A stretch of DNA of 25,362 nt from a virus. Location: the IMG/VR virus record IMGVR_UViG_3300042111_000185, positions 1-25,362 of that record; one strand, given 5' to 3'. Made by a program: the position numbers and the translations under genes. This document shows, in pieces, positions 3,371 through 18,919 of this stretch. The notes beneath the pieces are model-generated. The model ran no database searches. It saw only the letters and a program-made list of their open reading frames with translations, and was not told where the DNA came from. Numbering within the stretch: position 1 is the stretch's first letter; every line of letters begins with the position of its first letter.

Positions 3371-4243
3371 GTGGATATACTTGAGCGCTACAACAGGCTG
3401 CTACGCGCTGCTGAGGATGACACAATCTTATTATTAAATAAGGTTTTGGAGAGTTCATTCAATCGTCTGCTGCGCCGCTCGCGGGAGTACATGCGGCGCG
3501 GGATGCAAGATCCAAGTCAACGGAATGTGTTGTTACTGCAAGTGTTCCGGGAGCTGATTCCAGCTGTGCGGCCAGACATGCAGGATAAGTATGACCAGCT
3601 ATTTCGGAATTTAGTTGAGGAGGCATCAAAGCTAGGGATTGTTGCAGCTGATGCGCTCACGGGTGAGCTTTTACCGACTCACCCACGAGTAGATGTAACA
3701 CTACCGGTGGAAGCAACGATGGCTGCTGCAGCGCAGGCGAAAGGGTATTTAAGGCGTCATGGTGATGAGTTTGCTCGAACGGCTGCGGAAATTGTTGCGC
3801 AGGGGATTGCGGAGGGTCGTCCGACTGATGCGATGGTGCGCGACATGCGTGATCGCTTGGTGATTACAAGAGGGAGAGCGGAGACAATTGTAAGAACTGA
3901 GAGTTTACGGGCGTATTCAGAAGCAAGTAGTGCATATTATGCGGCTATAGGGATTGATCTAGTGATGTATTACGCGACGAGTGATGACCGAACATGTCCA
4001 GTATGTAGAGACAGGGCAGGTCGAATTTATCGTCGTGTGGAGTTAAAGTTACCGTTACACCCAAGGTGTCGGTGTGCTTTAGCACCTTACGATCCTGATA
4101 TAGCAAGGATTGATCCTACCTATGCTGGCATGGCTTCGCGTCATCGGAAGGAAGTTGCAAAGCACACTGGTGTTCCATTGAGCGACGATTTAACCAAAGC
4201 GGTGTTTGAGTCGATTACGCCCACTCCTGTGACTAGCGTTTAA
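3371..4243 (+). CDS. MuF-like minor head protein (head morphogenesis, PF04233 type)
   Basis: This is a minor capsid protein, usually present in few copies near the portal, and it may be ejected with the DNA in some phages. It has 290 residues and a GTG start eight bases after the portal stop. The N-terminal half is helical. The MuF domain covers about residues 140-240: it contains TIVRTESLRAYSEA and then a metal-binding set Cys209, Cys212, His230, Cys233 and Cys235 in CPVC and HPRCRC. These residues are characteristic of the family. Base use differs clearly from the flanking genes: third positions favour G, A and T instead of C, and the coding strand becomes G-rich. This suggests a separate origin. 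Only bases that look regulatory separate it from the accessory island downstream. Confidence 0.92.
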   Translation: MDILERYNRLLRAAEDDTILLLNKVLESSFNRLLRRSREYMRRGMQDPSQRNVLLLQVFRELIPAVRPDMQDKYDQLFRNLVEEASKLGIVAADALTGELLPTHPRVDVTLPVEATMAAAAQAKGYLRRHGDEFARTAAEIVAQGIAEGRPTDAMVRDMRDRLVITRGRAETIVRTESLRAYSEASSAYYAAIGIDLVMYYATSDDRTCPVCRDRAGRIYRRVELKLPLHPRCRCALAPYDPDIARIDPTYAGMASRHRKEVAKHTGVPLSDDLTKAVFESITPTPVTSV

Positions 4244-4248
4244 TACAT

Positions 4249-4331
4249 GACGGATTGTGAACCGTCCGGGTGATGGATGACCAAACCGTCACGGATGCGC
4301 TACTATTAGGACATCGGAGGGGAGGCCCTCC
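4249..4331 (+). promoter_or_regulatory. Putative promoter with repeated operator-like motifs and leader hairpin
   Basis: ATGACC (4277-4282) and TACTAT (4301-4306) are 18 bases apart and resemble a sigma-70-type -35/-10 pair. The words ACGGAT (4250, 4291) and ACCGTC (4261, 4285) each occur twice. The first pair forms an inverted repeat, GACGG..CCGTC. The second forms CCGTcACGG inside the promoter spacer, a classic repressor position. Downstream, GGAGGG (4316-4321) and CCCTCC (4326-4331) can form a hairpin around GAGG. All of this is inferred from spacing and symmetry. Confidence 0.35.
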
Positions 4332-4348
4332 ACCACTTAACACCAGCC

Positions 4349-4519
4349 ATGACTGCCTTTTCCGCCAAGCTCCCCACCCTTGCCACCGAAGAGCTGCTTG
4401 TTCTGATTCGCCGCATGATCACCGAAGAGATCTTCAACGATTGCTTTGATGCTGCAGTTGATGAAGCCTGCCGCCGTGACGAAAACCTGGCGGTCACCAT
4501 CGACGCGATGTGGGGCTGA
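4349..4519 (+). CDS. Small acidic hypothetical protein (56 aa)
   Basis: The ORF runs from ATG at 4349 to TGA at 4519. The product begins MTAFSAKLPTLATEELLVLI and ends with an acidic stretch and AMWG. Predicted character is two short amphipathic helices, with two cysteines and no recognised motif. Third positions are mostly C and G, as in real genes of this island, and the frame follows the only promoter-like sequence nearby. The next ORF starts 17 bases after the stop. I do not recognise the family. By size and context it could be a small regulatory or accessory phage protein. A chance ORF is possible but the codon pattern argues against it. Confidence 0.55.
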   Translation: MTAFSAKLPTLATEELLVLIRRMITEEIFNDCFDAAVDEACRRDENLAVTIDAMWG

Positions 4520-4536
4520 TCCCCGAGGCCGACAGT

Positions 4537-4755
4537 ATGTCTGACCCCACCGCCGCTGCCCGCGCCAAGCGCTACCGGGATCGCAAGGCCGGCCGCCTGC
4601 CGCCAGTGCAGCGGCCCACGTGTACCGCCTGCGGCATCTTGCACACCGGCGCCCGTGGTGTGCTCTGCTCCAGGTGCTGGGAACGGCTGGACCCTGCCGG
4701 TCGGGCGTTCAAGGCCGAGCGGGTGCGCAGAGTCAGGGAGCGGCGCAGCTTCTGA
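4537..4755 (+). CDS. Small basic zinc-ribbon protein (72 aa)
   Basis: ATG at 4537 begins MSDPTAAARAKRYRDRKAGR; a GTG nine codons upstream overlaps the previous gene and is less likely. The first 20 residues are arginine- and lysine-rich, as in nucleic-acid-binding tails. A C4 zinc ribbon follows, CTAC then CSRC with eleven residues between, and then an Arg-rich C terminus (AERVRRVRERRSF). Such small ribbons often bind DNA or RNA, but no specific function can be assigned. It is followed nine bases later by a second ORF with the same CxxC-CxxC arrangement, so the two may be diverged copies or parts of a set. The region is distinctly GC-rich compared with the head genes. Confidence 0.65.
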   Translation: MSDPTAAARAKRYRDRKAGRLPPVQRPTCTACGILHTGARGVLCSRCWERLDPAGRAFKAERVRRVRERRSF

Positions 4756-4763
4756 TTCCAGCG

Positions 4764-4982
4764 GTGCCGGTGAGGGAATGCCCGGTGTGCTTCGCGGCAA
4801 TGGCCGGGGGTGTGCCAATTTGTGAAGAGTGCGGACATGTGTTCGTAGTTCCGACCGCACAGCGATCTGATCCTCTGGGACAGCTCCACCCGCGCCACCA
4901 AGGGCAAGCTCGGCGCCCCCGATGGCACCAAATCCTGGATCGATGCCATCCATCACTGCGCCCACCGCGCTCGCATCATTGA
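4764..4982 (+). CDS. Second zinc-ribbon ORF, 3' part out of frame with methylase remnant
   Basis: A GTG start at 4764 (or 4770) gives VPVRECPVCFAAMAGGVPIC followed by EECGHVF. This is a clear C4 zinc ribbon, CPVC then CEEC with ten residues between. After about residue 30 the translation turns into Arg/Pro/His-rich low-quality sequence, while the overlapping frame from about 4858 looks like genuine protein. The likely meaning is that the first ~90 bases are a real ribbon gene whose 3' part was replaced or shifted at about 4850-4860. A direct +1 shift would instead join the ribbon to the downstream frame. Whether a stable 72-residue protein is made is uncertain. Confidence 0.45.
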   Translation: MPVRECPVCFAAMAGGVPICEECGHVFVVPTAQRSDPLGQLHPRHQGQARRPRWHQILDRCHPSLRPPRSHH

Positions 4983-5196
4983 TCTCAATGCCGCAAAGCA
5001 GCTGCTCGATGACAACGGCCTGGCCAACAGCCCCGTCTTCCTCACGGCCCTGGAGGCCGTACTTGAAGTGCTGCCCCTCTCCGCTCGCTACACCGGCTTC
5101 GATCCGGTGAAGGCCGCCGCGCCTGCTGCGTCCGACTTCGAGGCACTGGAGAACTTGCGTCGCCTCGCCCTGGCGGAGCAGGTGCCGGCACCCTAG
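4858..5196 (+). pseudogene. C-terminal remnant resembling DUF1156-type adenine-specific DNA methylase
   Basis: This frame is open from 4849 to the TAG at 5196 but has no ATG, GTG or TTG near its 5' end. The translation reads HSDLILWDSSTRATKGKLG, continues through WIDAIHHCAHRARIIDLNAA and FLTALEAVLEVLPLSARYTG, and ends SDFEALENLRRLALAEQVP. From memory this closely matches the last ~110 residues of the large DUF1156 adenine-specific methylases, some of which belong to defence or modification islands. In those, a short tail of QLEL type often follows. Here QLELVRVK is encoded just after the TAG, suggesting a premature stop as well. The catalytic N-terminal parts are absent, so the piece would not methylate DNA. 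The family assignment needs a search; the broken-gene reading is better supported than the name. Confidence 0.5.
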
Positions 5197-5374
5197 CAGC
5201 TGGAGCTGGTGAGGGTAAAGTAGTTTCGTCAATTGGTCAGCGCGGGCGGGGTGGGTCACCGGAGGGTGATCTGCCTGATGTCGGCGTGATGGATCCAAGC
5301 CTATCGGGATGAGGAGCAGCTAACCAAATCCCCCGAGCACGCTACCTTATGGCTATATCCCCATTGTTGTTGCT
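5197..5374. other. Non-coding gap after methylase remnant
   Basis: The first 27 bases look like the lost C-terminal codons of the remnant (QLELVRVK, then TAG at 5221-5223). The rest holds no ORF with coding character. It contains a weak CACC/GGTG inverted repeat near 5255-5275 and an AT-richer stretch (about 5344-5360) just before the next start, where a promoter could lie. No terminator with a T-tract is visible. Confidence 0.4.
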
Positions 5375-5593
5375 ATGGCATTAACCAAAAAGAACTTGAT
5401 GCCACCCCCGCAGGAGGAAGAGTGTAAGGACGGCGGGATTTACAAGCCGATGATGTGCGATGAAAGCAAACCACAACTGATGGCGAGCACGATGCAAGCT
5501 AATCCTTTGAGCTACAAGCCCAAGCAGAAGAAGAAGAAGTCCACGGCAGATAGCATTTGGGCTAAAGGCTTTGCATCACGTTTTAGCAAGTAG
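5375..5593 (+). CDS. Lysine-rich small hypothetical protein (72 aa)
   Basis: ATG at 5375 begins MALTKKNLMPPPQEEECKDG and the product ends in a basic segment (KPKQKKKKSTADSIWAKGFA). It is hydrophilic, probably disordered, with two cysteines and a Pro-rich start. No membrane segment or known motif is present. The last 18 bases overlap the 3' end of the leftward gene at 5576, so the two are convergent, and no terminator separates them. The Lys-rich tail could bind nucleic acid, but that is speculation. I do not recognise the family. Codon use is more AT-rich than in the zinc-ribbon genes just upstream, so the island is itself mosaic. Confidence 0.55.
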   Translation: MALTKKNLMPPPQEEECKDGGIYKPMMCDESKPQLMASTMQANPLSYKPKQKKKKSTADSIWAKGFASRFSK

Positions 5594-5846: not shown

Positions 5847-6062
5847 TTACACGTCAGTGACGACATCGCAAGCCTTAACGCCATATAAGTCACACAATTC
5901 GAGCAGTTTCAGCACGGATAGCTCCACTTCTCCTGTTTCCAGCCGACTGTATGCTGCTTGACTGATACCAAGATGTTCTGAAACCTCATTTTGTGTCATC
6001 TCCGCACACATCCTGAGTGCCTTAATCCGCCTGCAAATCGTCAACTGCCTGTAGATAGCCAT
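5847..6062 (-). CDS. XRE/Cro-CI family transcriptional regulator (71 aa)
   Basis: This is a small DNA-binding repressor or activator of Cro/CI type. The whole 71-residue protein is one HTH_3 domain. MCAEMTQNEVSEHLGISQAA carries helix 2 and the turn, with the recognition helix at ISQAAYSRLETGEVELSVLK, and LLELCDLYGVKACDVV closes the five-helix bundle. ATG at 6062 is the only sensible start. The gene points left, away from the prohead protease gene. The 61-base gap between the two starts holds a dyad at 6090-6115, so self-regulation and control of the rightward head genes are both plausible. A regulator inside the structural cluster is out of place for a typical phage repressor. The family is certain; the target is inferred. 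Confidence 0.92.
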   Translation of the reverse strand: MAIYRQLTICRRIKALRMCAEMTQNEVSEHLGISQAAYSRLETGEVELSVLKLLELCDLYGVKACDVVTDV

Positions 6063-10941: not shown

Positions 10942-10951
10942 AACATCCATC

Positions 10952-11560
10952 ATGGCTGATTATGCGATCGGCTTAGCTTTTCACAAGGCCCATCGGACGC
11001 TCGTTCGTGCTGTGGGTCTAAAAGCCCCCTGTCGCTATTATGCGACAAGGAACACTACTACAGGCCTAATTACCCTGCCCACATTGGATACTGGTGATGC
11101 TTACATCACTATGCAGGGTGTCTCCCAAACATCTTTCCAGATCAACGATCAGAACCAAGATTTCCGTTTGCTTGGTGATGACGGCTGGGGCGACAGCGTA
11201 ATCACTGGTAGCTCTGTTCAAGCTAGTGTCACGACCTATTTCCTGAGGGACACCGCCACCCCCGTGGGCGGTGGCTGCCCAACGTTTGTAGGTGACTACG
11301 AGGAAGGCTTCCAGCTTTTCCAGCGTGCCCGCTACGACAAGGACTACGAAGTTTACTTCGAGTTCCTGAAAGAAATGGGACGTGCTGCTGGCTCGACTGG
11401 TAACTACATTTATGACTTCACCGGCTTTAACGCCGTGGTCAGTAACTACCAGGAGCAGATGTCCGCTGAAGGTCTCACCGAGATCTCTTTGGATCTCATG
11501 TCCCGAGGCCGTCCGGTGTTCGGCAAGTACAGCAACACCACTGCTCTGAGCTTTGCCTGA
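10952..11560 (+). CDS. Major tail (tube) protein
   Basis: This is the 202-residue subunit expected to form the hexameric rings of the non-contractile tail tube. The frame is open further upstream, but ATG 10952 has the AGGAG site and begins MADYAIGLAFHKAHRTLVRA. The body is beta-rich: DTGDAYITMQGVSQTSFQIN, DDGWGDSVITGSSVQASVTT, then DFTGFNAVVSNYQEQ and ISLDLMSRGRPVF. This is the usual character of tail tube proteins of gpV/Phage_TTP kind. Position after a tail terminator and before the frameshifting chaperones agrees. An intrinsic terminator directly follows. High expression is expected from the good ribosome site and the terminated transcript end. Confidence 0.88.
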   Translation: MADYAIGLAFHKAHRTLVRAVGLKAPCRYYATRNTTTGLITLPTLDTGDAYITMQGVSQTSFQINDQNQDFRLLGDDGWGDSVITGSSVQASVTTYFLRDTATPVGGGCPTFVGDYEEGFQLFQRARYDKDYEVYFEFLKEMGRAAGSTGNYIYDFTGFNAVVSNYQEQMSAEGLTEISLDLMSRGRPVFGKYSNTTALSFA

Positions 11561-11613: not shown

Positions 11614-11847
11614 ATGCAGTCTTCTCTCCTGTCCGACCCAGAACGCACAGTCTTTGCGATGAATTGTCGAGTCGAGGGCTCCACGCTCCACTGCGGTGCC
11701 CTCTACCTCGAACCCCTCATCCGCCACCAGTCTATACGCTTAGCGGATGAACGCGCTACATTGTCGGTAGATATTCCTTCTGAACTGCTCAACCAGTCCA
11801 TCCCATTTCGGGCCTGGGATGTTGAGCTCCCCATAAGCCATGAGTAA
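11614..11847 (+). CDS. Small hypothetical tail-region protein (77 aa)
   Basis: ATG at 11614 lies just seven bases beyond the terminator T-run; the stop overlaps the next start by eight bases. The product begins MQSSLLSDPERTVFAMNCRV and is mixed beta in pattern (GALYLEPLIRHQSIRLADER, then VDIPSELLNQSIPFRAWDVE). Two cysteines are present and there is no motif. No ribosome site is visible, and the 5' leader would be very short if transcription started after the terminator, so it is probably made from read-through message. The family is unknown. An internal ATG at 11659 would shorten it by 15 residues. Confidence 0.65.
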   Translation: MQSSLLSDPERTVFAMNCRVEGSTLHCGALYLEPLIRHQSIRLADERATLSVDIPSELLNQSIPFRAWDVELPISHE

Positions 11848-12382
11848 GTACGGCAGCCTTCTGTTCCCAACCCCTACTGAGTTCCACGAGATCGGGCCAT
11901 TCCGTTTTCCTATTCATAAAGAGCTGCGCCCGGGTGAGATCATCGGTTTTGAAAAAATCGATAGGCAGCAGAGTAAGGCCACACTTGCACAGATGAAGCT
12001 CGTGCGTCGTATCTCTAGAGATAAGAAGGTTACACCTACGGAAGCGCAAGACATGCTTTCTAAGATGTCAGACGATGAGAACTCGAATCTACTATTTGAC
12101 TACGTCGATGAATTTAGCGAAGTTCAGAATGCGGGCGTGTCCATTACACAGACACAAATCAGCTACGTCACCGTGCTGATGCAGTACAGAGGGCAAGTCA
12201 AGATGCCCAAAGCTAAGGACTGGATTCAAACCCAAGACTGGACACAAGAGGATACTGAGGATCTGCCTTCCGAGATCCGCACAAATATTTACCAATTCAT
12301 CCTGTGGGAACGCGACGGCTGGCCGGTAGCCGAACCGGAGGGAAAGCCCGAAGAGGAGCTGGAACCAGCTCTCGTGAGCTGA
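11840..12382 (+). CDS. Tail assembly chaperone, short form (lambda gpG analogue)
   Basis: This is a 180-residue product in the zero frame. It begins MSKYGSLLFPTPTEFHEIGP. A helical middle (KKVTPTEAQDMLSKMSDDEN) and an acidic C terminus (PEGKPEEELEPALVS) follow. By analogy with lambda gpG it would coat the tape measure and keep it soluble while the tube polymerises. Evidence for the role is the position before the tape measure gene and the slippery heptamer near its end, which joins it to a second frame. The sequence itself is not recognisably related to gpG. The start overlaps the previous gene. Confidence 0.85.
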   Translation: MSKYGSLLFPTPTEFHEIGPFRFPIHKELRPGEIIGFEKIDRQQSKATLAQMKLVRRISRDKKVTPTEAQDMLSKMSDDENSNLLFDYVDEFSEVQNAGVSITQTQISYVTVLMQYRGQVKMPKAKDWIQTQDWTQEDTEDLPSEIRTNIYQFILWERDGWPVAEPEGKPEEELEPALVS

Positions 12383-12831
12383 GCATTGACGACATCATCG
12401 ACCGCTGCGAAAAGCATCTTCGACTTCCCAAGACCGATTGGGACTCGATCTACTTCCGCATCCGCTGCTCCCCTCTTGGGCCCGATTTTCCTGCTGACCA
12501 GTTCCTAAGGACCCCAGTTCGCGTCATCCGGTGGGTGCTCCGCGAACTGGACAACCAGGAGTTCGGACGCGCCAACCTGGAAGCGCTGCCAGTAGCTCGC
12601 CTGACCACGACACTGATCAGCATTGCTCACGGGTTTTCTGGTTCCAAGCGGGCTGCTCCCAAGCTGGATGTTAAGGACTTCCTACCGTACCCAGATTGGA
12701 AACCTGAGGGCGCATCTAGTACAGGCCCCAGTGACGAAACTGCAGCCCAGTTGAAAGAATTGTTGAGCAAACGACAGATTCCCATGCATGTGTTTACTTC
12801 TTTGATTACCCCAATCAGCCGATCCACGTAA
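11840..12831 (+). CDS. Tail assembly chaperone, -1 frameshift fusion (lambda gpGT analogue)
   Basis: Ribosomes reading the short form as far as codon 169 can slip one base back on GGGAAAG and continue in the other frame from 12346 to the TAA at 12831, giving about 330 residues. The added part reads ARRGAGTSSRELSIDDIIDR and continues with WDSIYFRIRCSPLGPDFPAD and VIRWVLRELDNQEFGRANLE. It is clearly coding yet lacks its own ATG; only a poorly placed GTG at 12304 exists. In lambda the T domain of gpGT recruits tube subunits to the tape measure, and the same is expected here. The slippery site and hairpin are listed separately. The tape measure gene starts 28 bases after the stop. Confidence 0.85.
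12340..12371 (+). promoter_or_regulatory. Programmed -1 ribosomal frameshift signal
   Basis: G GGA AAG (12340-12346) is in the correct phase of the upstream frame for tandem slippage, giving GGG AAA. After a 9-base spacer the perfect inverted repeat GAGCTGG-AA-CCAGCTC (12356-12371) can form a tight hairpin. The heptamer is the same as that used by lambda G-T. The zero-frame stop lies only 34 bases past the heptamer. Confidence 0.88.
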
Positions 12832-12859: not shown

Positions 12860-15800
12860 GTGTCTGGGTATCAAATCACAGTCACAGCGGATACCAAAGC
12901 CGCTATAGATGAATTAAGAAAACTGTCTAAACAGATAGAAGATATAAACAAGCCAAAGATAAAGCCTATTGTAGACTCTAATAGTCTAGCTTCTTTAACT
13001 AGAGGTTTACAAACTGAGCTACGGCGTTTAAAAGAGCAGCAAGTCACCGTTGACATTAATAGCACTTCGTTCAAACAGTTAGGCGCACAAATTCAAGATA
13101 CTCAAAATAGGCTTAGGGGTCTTGAGCAAAAGAAGCTGCTTATTGACGCAGACCCCTCTAGCATCGTTGCGTTAAAAGCTAAACTCGGAGACTTACAGCA
13201 ACAACTTGAGAGAGTTAGTACAAAATCTGAAGAGTTTAAGCAACTTACTGGTGAGATCAAAAAAACTGAAGCTGCCTTAAGCGGAGTAGGTAACGCGGGC
13301 AGAGGAGGCGCAATGCGTCTTGTGGAAAACTTTGCAAAAGTTGGTTTCGCTCTGTACGGTATTCAAGAGGCTGTACGTCTCACGAGCGCTGCTTTCAAAG
13401 GTTTTTTTGATGAAACAATAGGCAGGGAAATAAAGTTCAGAGAAACAATACTTAAAACTCAGACCACTTTGGCTTCTACCAACAAAGTTTTTCGCAATGG
13501 CGAAGAAATTACAGATCCTTATCAAAAGATTGTAGCTCTTACAGGACAAGTTGAAGAGCGCGTCGATAGCATCCGTAAGCGCTCCATTGAACTTGCGGGA
13601 GTCACGTCTAATGATGTAGTTGAAGTCTTTGGAATTGTTTCCTCTCAAATCGGGATGATTGGTGGGGGCTTAAAAGACGCGGAAGATTTAGCAATTAGCT
13701 TCTCCGCTGCTTTAGGCACTTTTGGTCTTCCACTACATCAGGCTCGCCAGGAGATCGGCTCCATCATGCGGGGGGATATAACACAGGATTCTTACCTTGC
13801 AAAGGCTCTTCAAATCACTCCAAAAGATATAGAAAAAGCCAAAACACAAGCCGGTGGTGTTGTAGATTTCATCCAAAAGAAACTACAAGGTGCTGTCGCG
13901 GGCCAAAAGATTTCTGCGCAGAGCTTCTCTGGCGTGCTAAGCAATCTTAAAGATCTGCAAGAACTCTTCGGACAAGAATTTGGTAAAGGTCTACTCGACC
14001 CACTACTGAATGGGTTGCGAGCCGTATTTAACTATTTGAACAGCATTCGAGATTCACTTTTTGCGATAGGCAAAGAAGCCGGGGCGAGCTTAGGTAAACT
14101 ATTTAGTAATAATCTATCTGCACTTATTGGTGGGTCCGACTTATTCAAAGGGATGGGAGCAAGTGCGGCCGAAGGTGCCAAACAATTAGTCACTACAATA
14201 CAAAATGCATTTGCATCACTTCAATCACATGCAAATGATTTTATAGCACCTGTGCGCAACATACTAGAGGAATTAGTCAAAAGTGCTGTTGTATTAGGAT
14301 CAGCATTTGCCGAGGTTGGCAAAGGGCTCGGATCCATCGGGATTGAAACACTTAAAAATATTGTATCACTAATATCAAACCTAAGTGAAGTAGCTACAGT
14401 TGCGGTAACTGGTATTGCAGGAATTATCAAGGTATTTGGTCAACTTTTACAGTTGCCGCCTGTTCAAGCTTTTGTCCAGCTCCGTATGGAGATGGAAATC
14501 ATCAACCGCCTTGGTATTGCAACTGCCATTCAAAGTTCAATTGGTCCCATTCGTAATATGGGCGCTGCTGTCGCTGGTTTAGGTCAAAACTTAGCGCGTA
14601 GCGCAATTGGCATGCGGTCTTTTTCTCAAGCAGCAGCAGGCATTGGTGTTGCGGTATCAACAGCAGTTAAATCAATGGGTGCTGCAGTTGCGTCATTCAT
14701 GAAAACGAATGGGATCTTGTTATTAATACAGGTTGCTTTAACTGTAGCCATTGATCTATTTGGACGTTTTCAGCGGCAACAGGAAGAAATCGCACGCTCG
14801 CGTAAGGCTGATGCAGCGCTACAGGAATTAAATACCAAGTACAAAGACCTTAGCGAAGGCGCTTCCGAGGCCGAGAAAGCACAGAAGGCTTATCTTGAAT
14901 CTCTTGTAAGCAATGAATACGACGCGGCTATTAATAACTTAAATGAGATTAATGAAAAGCTCCGTGCGCAAGAGGGCCCTAATATCTTTGAACAATTAGG
15001 CAATAGTGTGAAATGGTTTGCAGGAGAACTAAGTAAATTAGTACGTCAATTTGGCCCATTGCTTTCCATTCTTACAGGTGGTGCATTAGGTGGAGGGATG
15101 GCTGGAATTATTTCTAGTGCCAACTCAAAAACAGGTAGTAAAGCTCGGGATAACAAGATTTTTGGTTTTGATACTCGAAATATTACTGACCCATTTGGGC
15201 GTCATAGCAAAGATGGCTGGTACATGCAGGAGCTAAAGAAGCAACAGGCTGAAGCTACAGCCCGTGCTGAAAAGTTTAAACCTGCGGATAAAGGTGGATT
15301 CGGCGAATCTAATGATATTCGACTTCAAGCTGAAGCAGCTACTGCCAATATGGAAAAACAGAAACAACTAGAAGAAGACATGGCTGAGCGTCGCCGTGCC
15401 TTCGAGGAAGAGCTCGCCAACTTCCGCAAGTCCCAGGAGGACGCAGTCTTCGAGCGTCGTCAGTCCCTAGCCCAGAAGGAAATCGACATCTTCCGCGCTG
15501 CTGGGGAACTTCGCATCGCTCAGATGGAGCAGGCAAACGCGAAGATGATCGAAGGCGAGCAGGGCGCTTCTCGCGCCGCTATGGAAGCGCTTAACACCTA
15601 CATCGCCGAGCGCGAAAAGGGAGAGTTAGACATAGAAGCGCAGAAGCAAGAGATAGCACAGGAAATGATAAAGATGGAAAAGACACTAGCTGACTACAGG
15701 CTAGAGCAGGAGAAGCGAATTGCAGAGATACGTCGAAAAGCAGATGAGTATTCAATGGCTATCTCCAAAGCAAATGCGCAAATAGCCAGCAGCAGCGCCA

Positions 15801-18800
15801 TGTCCGCAGGTAGTAGTAGCGATACTGCAGGTATAACCGCTGTATCCGGTACTCAAGCTGCTTTTGATACAGGTTTACGTACAGGACCTGCTCATACTAT
15901 TGGTGGTAGCTCTGATTATCACCAAGATATGGCATTCGGCACAATGGTGTCACTCAAAGAGCAGGTAGCTCTTGTACGCCAGATGGCGCAAGCCTACGAC
16001 AAGATAGGCCGACATATGGAGTTGTCTAATAATGGAGTTGCAGGAAAAATATTCCCAGTAAATGGCTCAGAGGCTGAACAAACACAATGGGTTACCTCAG
16101 CCCGAGCGGCCCACCGAGCCCGTAACGGAGGCACAGGTAGAGACGCTATTGATTTCTACACACCGCTAAAAGGTACAGACAGGTATCACAGGTCTGTTGA
16201 AGACACTCCAATGTTAGCTCCTGTGATACCTGGAGCAGAGAAGCAATACTTTAGTGGTGGGCCCGCAGGTGCAGGCGTGCGTTTAGTGAAGAATGGACAA
16301 AAGCTGTTCTCTCTTATCCATGGGCGCACAGATAGAGCTCTACCTCAGAATGGTGTGTTACCTGCGAGTTCAGTGCCTGCTCAAACCGTTGCAGCGTCTT
16401 CAACAAGACCGACTCAGTCCTCGGCCCCTACAGCTTCTCGTCCTTCTAGCAGCGGTATCACTCCACAGCTCCGAGCCATACTCGACACTATTCGACACGC
16501 CGAAGGCACTTGGCTTGGTGGATCTGACAAGGGCTACCAGACCATGTTTGGTGGTGGCACCTTCTCCAATTACGCCCGCCACCCAGATAAGGTCATCCGT
16601 TCCGGAGGCTACGCCAGCGCTGCTGCCGGTGCCTATCAGTTCATGCCCGACACCTGGGCCGCTACCAGCAAAAAGCTAGGTCTAAAAGACTTCAGCCCAG
16701 AGAGTCAAGACAAGGGCGCAATCGAACTATTAAAAAGACGGGGTGTCTACGATGCGCTCGCAGCAGGTAAGTTCACACCTGAAATTGCAGCAAAGATGGC
16801 CCCCGAGTGGGCATCATTCCCAACAATGGCTGGCGGCAGCTACTACGGGCAACCCAGTAAGAAATTCGCAGAACTACAAAAGTTCTATCAACAACGGCTG
16901 GGAGAAAACCAGAAGACACAACCGTTCCGCCCCGTCCCCGAGTACGGCCCGACTCTCGATAACCCACAGCACATGCAAAAAATCGGAGATCTTGAGCGGC
17001 AACTCGTAGGAAGCAACCAAAAGCTGGCAACTCTCCGCGCTTCTTTAACCGATCTCAGCAACAGCAAAAACTTCGATGCTATAGGCAAAGCATTTGAAGA
17101 TGCTCTTCCTGGCAAGGAAGATTTTGAAGCGATGGAAACGCAGTTGTATAGCACGATGCAGACTATTACCCAACTTGGAGAGACTGCAGGCGAGGCTTTC
17201 GATCCTGAAGCAGCCAAGCTTATGGTTGAGCACACTACCAACCAAATGGTATTAGAGCGTGAGCTTGGCCAAACAAGAGCGCATATTGCACAACTAAGTA
17301 ACCTGTCAGATGCAGAGCGACTGAAGATAAATGAGATGCTGAACAAAACTGCAGAGAAGTATAACCAGGATCAGGCCCGCACTTTAGAGCTGAAAAAACA
17401 GCAACTCGCTGCAGAACGCGGTCTGGCCTACATCCAAGAGGCAAAGCAGCGCACTGGTGAAATGAAAGAGCAGACAGAAATCATGCGTAATACTTCGCAG
17501 ATGAAGTTTAGCGGGATGCGGCAGGAAGATATAGATTACAAACTAGACGTAGCAGCTATTCGACGCAACTACGATAAACAATTCAAGGAGTTACTTACGG
17601 CCAATCCTGTAGCCAACAAAATCAGTGAAACTTTCACATCACCTGTAGCCGAACCGGTCGATGCTGGAATCTTTACCGCACCCTTACCAAAACTAGCGGT
17701 GCCCCCCGCCCCCGTAGTACCTGCGGTGGCCGCACCTGCCAACAACATCGTTCCTACAAACGGCAAGCCTCCCACTGCCGCTACCACATCCGTCCCCCCG
17801 AGCACGAGTTCGATCTCCGCACTCGTGGCCGGCGCTAAAACCTCCCTATTGGACACACAAGCTGCGGCATTAGCACTTTCTACCACAGCTACTAACACCC
17901 TTGCTCCTGCACTCTCCAATGCTTTTGCTTCTATTGCTGCAGGCGCAATGCAACTTCCTGAAGGATTACAAGCTATATCCGCAGGTTTTGCGGAATCTAC
18001 AAAGACATTCCTCGATGCATCTGGTGGATTAAGCGCCCAACTAAACGCCGAGACCGAGAAACAAATAGAGGCACGCGGTAAGCTGCGGGACGCCATCATC
18101 GAATCCAACGATCCAATCCGCAACCAGATCGGTCAATGGCGCCGAGAACTAGCCGATACTGAAGGCATGGTGGCGAGTCTCGGAGGTACCATCCAATCCG
18201 AGCTCTCCCAGGCCATGAGCACCTCCTTGATCGGCCTGGTCAATGGCACGAATACAGCCAAGGAAGCGTTCAGCTCAATGCTGCAAAGCATTGGCAAGAC
18301 GATGGTGGACACCGCCACGCAGATGCTGTCCAAGTCGCTGGTGAGCGGCTTGATGGGTAACGGCGCTGCCGGTGGCGGCCTCCTCGGCAGCATCTTCGGT
18401 CTCAGTGGGGGCGGTGGCGGACTCGGGGGCCTTCTCGGCGGCCTCTTCGGCGCTCGCGCTGCTGGAGGTCACGCTGATGCCAACCGCCCCCTGCTGATCG
18501 GCGAGCGCGGCCCCGAGATCTTCGTACCCGATACCGGGGGCCAGATCGTTCCGAACCACCGCGCCCAGGCTTACGCAGCGATGTCGCGCTCGGTGGACGA
18601 CTCGGCTTTTCCCAAGACACAGAAAGGCGGAACGAATCTACGACAACAAGAAGATCCCTTTGCAGCTAATAAAGAAGTGCTCAACTCAATTGCTGCTGCG
18701 TCCCAGAAGCGCAGTACGGAGAAATCTATAGCCAGCATTGGCGGCACCTCCGAGATCAAATACTCCCGCGTCAACTCCGGTGACCTCCCCTTCATCACCG

Positions 18801-18919
18801 AGGACGATGCCCTGCGCATCGCTAAACAAGCTGAAATGAATGGAGCTAAGATGGGCCAACAGCGCACCCTTGCAGCCCTGCGCAACAACCCGAGCACGAG
18901 GAGAGGCATAGGTATCTAA
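12860..18919 (+). CDS. Tail tape measure protein with embedded GH104 lytic domain
   Basis: This is the length ruler of the tail, ejected at infection: 2019 residues, GTG start. Order seen: N-terminal helices (1-150); tape measure core with hydrophobic segments near 500-531, 614-640 and 735-755; a long charged coiled coil (about 827-970); a globular region at about 1010-1165 with AIDFYTPLKGTD and FSLIHGRTD, which resembles an M23 peptidase fold lacking the full metal ligands; and a lytic transglycosylase domain at about 1200-1347. The last shares RAILDTIRHAEGTW, AGAYQFMPDTW and LGLKDFSPESQD with lambda endolysin R (GH104), with the catalytic Glu at 1215. More coiled coil follows, then a Pro/Ala linker (about 1600-1660). 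The glycine-rich C terminus carries the common tape measure signature LLIGERGPEIFVPDTGGQIV (near 1881). It probably opens the cell wall. Confidence 0.96.
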   Translation: MSGYQITVTADTKAAIDELRKLSKQIEDINKPKIKPIVDSNSLASLTRGLQTELRRLKEQQVTVDINSTSFKQLGAQIQDTQNRLRGLEQKKLLIDADPSSIVALKAKLGDLQQQLERVSTKSEEFKQLTGEIKKTEAALSGVGNAGRGGAMRLVENFAKVGFALYGIQEAVRLTSAAFKGFFDETIGREIKFRETILKTQTTLASTNKVFRNGEEITDPYQKIVALTGQVEERVDSIRKRSIELAGVTSNDVVEVFGIVSSQIGMIGGGLKDAEDLAISFSAALGTFGLPLHQARQEIGSIMRGDITQDSYLAKALQITPKDIEKAKTQAGGVVDFIQKKLQGAVAGQKISAQSFSGVLSNLKDLQELFGQEFGKGLLDPLLNGLRAVFNYLNSIRDSLFAIGKEAGASLGKLFSNNLSALIGGSDLFKGMGASAAEGAKQLVTTIQNAFASLQSHANDFIAPVRNILEELVKSAVVLGSAFAEVGKGLGSIGIETLKNIVSLISNLSEVATVAVTGIAGIIKVFGQLLQLPPVQAFVQLRMEMEIINRLGIATAIQSSIGPIRNMGAAVAGLGQNLARSAIGMRSFSQAAAGIGVAVSTAVKSMGAAVASFMKTNGILLLIQVALTVAIDLFGRFQRQQEEIARSRKADAALQELNTKYKDLSEGASEAEKAQKAYLESLVSNEYDAAINNLNEINEKLRAQEGPNIFEQLGNSVKWFAGELSKLVRQFGPLLSILTGGALGGGMAGIISSANSKTGSKARDNKIFGFDTRNITDPFGRHSKDGWYMQELKKQQAEATARAEKFKPADKGGFGESNDIRLQAEAATANMEKQKQLEEDMAERRRAFEEELANFRKSQEDAVFERRQSLAQKEIDIFRAAGELRIAQMEQANAKMIEGEQGASRAAMEALNTYIAEREKGELDIEAQKQEIAQEMIKMEKTLADYRLEQEKRIAEIRRKADEYSMAISKANAQIASSSAMSAGSSSDTAGITAVSGTQAAFDTGLRTGPAHTIGGSSDYHQDMAFGTMVSLKEQVALVRQMAQAYDKIGRHMELSNNGVAGKIFPVNGSEAEQTQWVTSARAAHRARNGGTGRDAIDFYTPLKGTDRYHRSVEDTPMLAPVIPGAEKQYFSGGPAGAGVRLVKNGQKLFSLIHGRTDRALPQNGVLPASSVPAQTVAASSTRPTQSSAPTASRPSSSGITPQLRAILDTIRHAEGTWLGGSDKGYQTMFGGGTFSNYARHPDKVIRSGGYASAAAGAYQFMPDTWAATSKKLGLKDFSPESQDKGAIELLKRRGVYDALAAGKFTPEIAAKMAPEWASFPTMAGGSYYGQPSKKFAELQKFYQQRLGENQKTQPFRPVPEYGPTLDNPQHMQKIGDLERQLVGSNQKLATLRASLTDLSNSKNFDAIGKAFEDALPGKEDFEAMETQLYSTMQTITQLGETAGEAFDPEAAKLMVEHTTNQMVLERELGQTRAHIAQLSNLSDAERLKINEMLNKTAEKYNQDQARTLELKKQQLAAERGLAYIQEAKQRTGEMKEQTEIMRNTSQMKFSGMRQEDIDYKLDVAAIRRNYDKQFKELLTANPVANKISETFTSPVAEPVDAGIFTAPLPKLAVPPAPVVPAVAAPANNIVPTNGKPPTAATTSVPPSTSSISALVAGAKTSLLDTQAAALALSTTATNTLAPALSNAFASIAAGAMQLPEGLQAISAGFAESTKTFLDASGGLSAQLNAETEKQIEARGKLRDAIIESNDPIRNQIGQWRRELADTEGMVASLGGTIQSELSQAMSTSLIGLVNGTNTAKEAFSSMLQSIGKTMVDTATQMLSKSLVSGLMGNGAAGGGLLGSIFGLSGGGGGLGGLLGGLFGARAAGGHADANRPLLIGERGPEIFVPDTGGQIVPNHRAQAYAAMSRSVDDSAFPKTQKGGTNLRQQEDPFAANKEVLNSIAAASQKRSTEKSIASIGGTSEIKYSRVNSGDLPFITEDDALRIAKQAEMNGAKMGQQRTLAALRNNPSTRRGIGI

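Follow-up and report, generated by a model that had tools for sequence, protein, structure and literature searches.

A putative lambda-type programmed −1 frameshift between two tail genes of a phage contig, kept among relatives whose proteins have diverged

Between a probable major tail protein gene and the tape measure gene, a 25,362-base phage contig from IMG/VR (the whole stretch analyzed, hereafter the window) carries two overlapping ORFs, raising the question of whether the second is a gene of its own or is reached from the first by a programmed −1 frameshift. In phage lambda, low-level −1 frameshifting yields gpG and gpGT at a ratio of about 30:1, both of them tail assembly chaperones (PMC5009743; the programmed shift is credited to Levin 1993 and Xu 2004 as cited there). 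This tail-chaperone frameshift is widely conserved in long-tailed phages though sequence similarity is low (PMC5009743).

The window belongs to a tailed phage with a head-to-tail structural module in the order terminase, portal, minor head protein, maturation protease, major head protein, probable major tail protein, the G-like and T-like ORFs, and tape measure protein, and the genes beyond the tape measure gene are probably tail genes. Named phages searched with the window at the DNA level gave no match; the closest named relatives of the window phage infect cyanobacteria. The features of the locus are as follows.

10949 to 11560, plus strand: probable major tail protein gene, 203 aa, from its position and a weak match to phrog_1407, major tail protein (E=0.0077)
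11614 to 11847, plus strand: small 77-aa ORF, placed after the tail protein gene and before the G-like gene, from the ORF list
11840 to 12382, plus strand: G-like ORF in the 0 frame, 180 aa, a putative short tail assembly chaperone, from the ORF, a family alignment, and its place a short way upstream of the tape measure gene
12340 to 12346, plus strand: slippery heptamer G_GGA_AAG in 0-frame phase, from the sequence and relatives
12347 to 12355, plus strand: spacer CCCGAAGAG, 9 nt to the first Watson-Crick pair of a downstream hairpin, 8 nt if its outer G-U pair is counted
12346 to 12831, plus strand: T-like extension in the −1 frame, 161 codons, from the ORF and a T part alignment
11840 to 12831, plus strand: predicted GT fusion, 330 aa, junction ...EPEGK-ARRGAG..., from translation of 11840-12346 and then 12346-12828
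12860 to 18919, plus strand: tape measure gene, 2019 aa, from its length and synteny with the annotated tape measure gene of Synechococcus phage S-CBS4

The G-like/T-like pair thus lies between a weakly identified major tail protein gene and the tape measure gene, with the T-like extension directly upstream of the latter as in the V-G-T-H layout of lambda. Among relatives of the locus, a long ORF occupied the tape measure position directly after the T part at all 55 testable loci. The tape measure protein of the window gave a match to Tape_meas_lam_C below the Pfam cut-off. Separately, its residues from about 1188 to 1358 form a lysozyme-like domain (phrog_90, E=1.6e-36; phrog_17230). Family searches with the 77-aa ORF found no match; in S-CBS4, a small ORF is annotated at the equivalent position.

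Near the 3′ end of the 180-aa ORF, the 0-frame codons read GAG GGA AAG CCC, confirming the phase of GGGAAAG and the 9-base spacer claimed in an earlier note on this DNA. No stop interrupts the −1 frame between 12259 and 12828. Most ribosomes would terminate at 12382 to release the 180-aa G-like protein, and a minority would slip back one base on G_GGA_AAG, the GGA and AAG tRNAs re-pairing with GGG and AAA, to resume translation at GCC (12346) as the first codon after the slip and make the 330-aa GT protein. Following lambda, the tape measure protein may be the binding partner of the shared N-terminal part, and the T part may recruit the major tail protein. As a measure of chance, the upstream portions of the same genes had in-phase X_XXY_YYZ heptamers at 22 of 9,993 codon positions and in-phase GGGAAA at none of them.

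The equivalent gene position of lambda reads GCG GGA AAG. The two phages share an identical heptamer in identical phase, a −1 shift into a second ORF, and a gene pair between the major tail protein and tape measure genes. They differ in the length of the G part (180 aa in the window versus 140 aa in lambda) and in the proteins, between which we detected no relation. Comparison by hhalign gave probabilities of 0.2% and 1.9% against lambda G and T, so no homology to these proteins was found, as the earlier note had supposed; the 80 relatives of lambda T were 99% identical and gave no useful profile. Sequence searches of Pfam, PHROGs, and PDB likewise found no match to either part. Predicted models of the two parts, made with the S-CBS4 row left out of the input alignment, had confidences of 82.7 and 86.8, and Foldseek found no significant match to either in PDB. 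Viral structure models gave weak matches only, some of them labelled tail assembly chaperone. The best of these for the G part was a 264-aa protein, the same length as gp032 of Cylindrospermopsis virus CrV-01T, which lies directly upstream of the CrV-01T T homologue. By these searches, the G and T proteins show no detectable kinship with lambda G and T, nor with a named family.

To find relatives, loci were searched with the G part and then with G and T part alignments, which gave more than 100 contigs; with identical slip regions collapsed, 65 distinct sequences remained, the window and S-CBS4 included. In every one of the 65, which share kinship and are not independent, the second ORF lay in the −1 frame and the overlap contained at least one in-phase X_XXY_YYZ heptamer; at the background rate given above, about 3.4 of 65 would be expected to do so. 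A second search with the S-CBS4 T part gave 64 sites, namely S-CBS4 itself and 63 new ones, and these 63 further distinct relatives, nearly all of the S-CBS4 type, had the same −1 layout and in-phase heptamer, mostly A_AAA_AAA. Both features were therefore present in 128 of 128 distinct relatives (65 plus 64, one shared). Across the relatives, the G and T parts diverge from those of the window by up to 71-73%, and the heptamer changes in type among relatives and clades while its phase and role are kept. The slip signal is thus maintained as the proteins diverge, which bears out the earlier note, as does the conservation of the slippery site in relatives that it had proposed as a check.

The G part family alignment of 39 members contained 13 invariant residues. 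With 27-88% identity across relatives and indels that preserve the frame, the T part is, by alignment, conserved as a protein. At the codon level, the codon before GGA ended in G at 62 of 62 GGGAAA-type sites, versus 28% of background third positions upstream. Where that codon encoded Glu it was GAG in 44 of 44 cases (elsewhere GAG:GAA was 563:458), and glycine is seldom encoded by GGA in these genes (57 of 415). This codon-level constraint restates the heptamer finding because the sites were chosen by heptamer. It does show, however, preservation of the heptamer at the nucleotide level and not of the peptide alone.

The heptamers of the 65 sequences were GGGAAAC (35), GGGAAAG (22), GGGAAAA (5), AAAAAAA (2), and AAAAAAC (1), a distribution that bears on how the frame would be changed. 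The change might be real and yet arise through slippage of RNA polymerase on the template rather than of the ribosome, and the A_AAA_AAA run of S-CBS4-type relatives is of the kind on which polymerases can slip. Against this explanation, 62 of the 65 sequences, the window among them, have GGGAAAN, which lacks a long run of one base, and the heptamer keeps to a strict codon phase, as slippage of the ribosome requires. We consider polymerase slippage extremely unlikely.

The second ORF might instead be a separate gene, translated from its own start or by re-initiation after the 0-frame stop. The window does contain a possible start in the −1 frame, a GTG at 12304 that precedes the slip site by 36 nt, so the earlier claim that the second frame has no start of its own needs qualification here. 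No Shine-Dalgarno sequence is visible before this GTG, however, and it is not conserved. Between the upstream stop and the heptamer, 60 of the 65 relatives had no ATG, GTG, or TTG in the −1 frame, as the claim would have it, and only 5, the window among them, had any; 26 of the 65 had no start there or in the next 40 codons after the slip. In several relatives (L022, L056, L135, and L148), the open stretch of the −1 frame begins exactly at the heptamer. Among the relatives, the second ORF therefore overlaps the first in the −1 frame without a conserved start, and a separate gene would leave the conservation of the heptamer unexplained. Independent initiation has, in our judgment, hardly any probability. 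Instead, the comparison strongly supports the programmed −1 shift advanced in the earlier note, and the window site is very probably a lambda-type tail-assembly-chaperone frameshift. We infer from the conserved site that slipping occurs; by analogy with lambda, its rate may be a few percent and the G and GT proteins may act as chaperones.

We then considered whether the RNA downstream of the heptamer forms part of the signal. The inverted-repeat arms GAGCTGG (12356-12362) and CCAGCTC (12365-12371), separated by AA, are present as described in the earlier note, which had called the repeat clean and perfect. A 7-bp stem is impossible, because a 2-nt loop cannot be closed by the innermost pair. 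Two hairpins, mutually exclusive, can form, the first of them being the version of this repeat that is able to fold.

12355 to 12372, plus strand: first hairpin, GGAGCUG-GAAC-CAGCUCU, a possible weak stimulator, with 6 Watson-Crick pairs, an outer G-U pair, and the tetraloop GAAC (−9.6 kcal/mol)
12366 to 12381, plus strand: competing hairpin, CAGCUC-UCGU-GAGCUG (−8.6 kcal/mol)

The first hairpin might be an essential, selected stimulator that makes the signal unusual. Hardly any control segment from the same genes is as stable; it lies 8-9 nt downstream of the slip site and in the nearest relative (L001, G part 96% identical) retains its GCUG-GAAC-CAGC core with the four inner pairs, the outer stem being bulged. 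In a 54-nt fold, however, the competing hairpin prevails over it, and it is absent in the next relatives, L002 and L003 (80-82% identical in protein), and beyond. Across 27 aligned relatives, the share of cells in which the stem positions paired, 37.5%, did not exceed that of shuffles, and the positions did not covary; shifting the partner 1-3 bases towards the 3′ end gave more pairing. Stems of at least 7 bp followed the slip site in 3 of the 65 relatives versus 1.8 expected, chance alone placing such a stem at that distance at about 3% of positions, and the window contains 13 perfect 7-bp inverted repeats with a gap of 2-6 nt. The 30-nt segments after the slip site were slightly more stable than same-gene controls (mean of −6.4 versus −4.5 kcal/mol), in a region of 64% G+C. 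No conserved or covarying stem was thus found at the right distance in the relatives examined. Owing to the loss of the hairpin, the lack of covariation, and near-chance stem counts, a downstream structure is not a conserved part of the signal. The weight that the earlier note placed on the hairpin is not sustained, its altered form being found in the nearest relative only. The hairpin beside the slip site is probably not essential, an essential role being in our view unlikely, and it is at most a lineage-specific enhancer.

In S-CBS4, gp032 and gp033 are homologous to the G and T parts (30.6% and 28.9% identity) and have the same layout before the annotated tape measure gene; they differ in the slip site, A_AAA_AAA, and in their annotation, which treats them as distinct hypothetical proteins and shortens both at the start. 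Homology at this locus (L011 6001-6968; NC_016766.1 19779-20746) reaches upstream of both annotated starts. Judged by sequence comparison, gp032 and gp033 are probably joined by a −1 slip on A_AAA_AAA and appear to be mis-annotated.

In the Cylindrospermopsis phages Cr-LKS4 and CrV-01T and related contigs, too, the −1 frame encodes the T homologue. No X_XXY_YYZ heptamer occurs in the overlap of Cr-LKS4 and CrV-01T. An in-phase G_GGG_GAG was invariant in all 8 distinct sequences examined from these phages and related contigs (L012 and L013 at 2968-2974; also L316, L318-L321, L323, L330, and L336). The similar GGGGGAA is frequent in the SEA-PHAGES chaperone gene set of PRFect (PMC10885494), and G_GGG_GAG therefore also has precedent. 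In this clade, the annotation begins the second gene at an internal start that lies later.

It is conceivable, though we regard it as rather doubtful, that these cyanophage-like tail chaperones swap slippery sites freely (G_GGA_AAG, G_GGA_AAC, A_AAA_AAA, and, in the Cylindrospermopsis phage clade, the noncanonical G_GGG_GAG) and lack any conserved stimulatory structure, in which case the slip site and host tRNAs alone would set the frameshift rate. The relatives provide over 100 natural variants with which to ask how a bacterial −1 site works without a conserved stimulator, and position and mode of expression suggest a likely function for a protein family that had no annotation. Phage Colossus (PMC3556154) and Burkholderia phage KL1 (PMC3483164) have GGGAAAC at predicted tail chaperone frameshifts in what is, by description, the equivalent gene pair; this heptamer is the commonest in the window's relatives and differs from the GGGAAAG of the window itself. 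Since such sites were already reported in these chaperone genes, the finding belongs to a known kind. The general picture of a conserved frameshift in proteins that are not conserved, established since 2004, is unaltered.

Some further observations concern single loci. The sole relative from a bacterial genome collection (L155 472-1100, found in the second search) is on a 4.1-kb contig in the 'Proteobacteria bacterium' assembly AM_0268; it is probably a stray phage contig and therefore poor evidence of host. At 4243-5375 of the window, an interval of about 1.1 kb that separates the minor head protein gene from the next gene, several overlapping ORFs lie on both strands without a clear gene. 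Within the structural module, a small helix-turn-helix repressor-like gene is on the minus strand at 5847-6062, and S-CBS4 has an annotated repressor, also on the minus strand, in the matching place.
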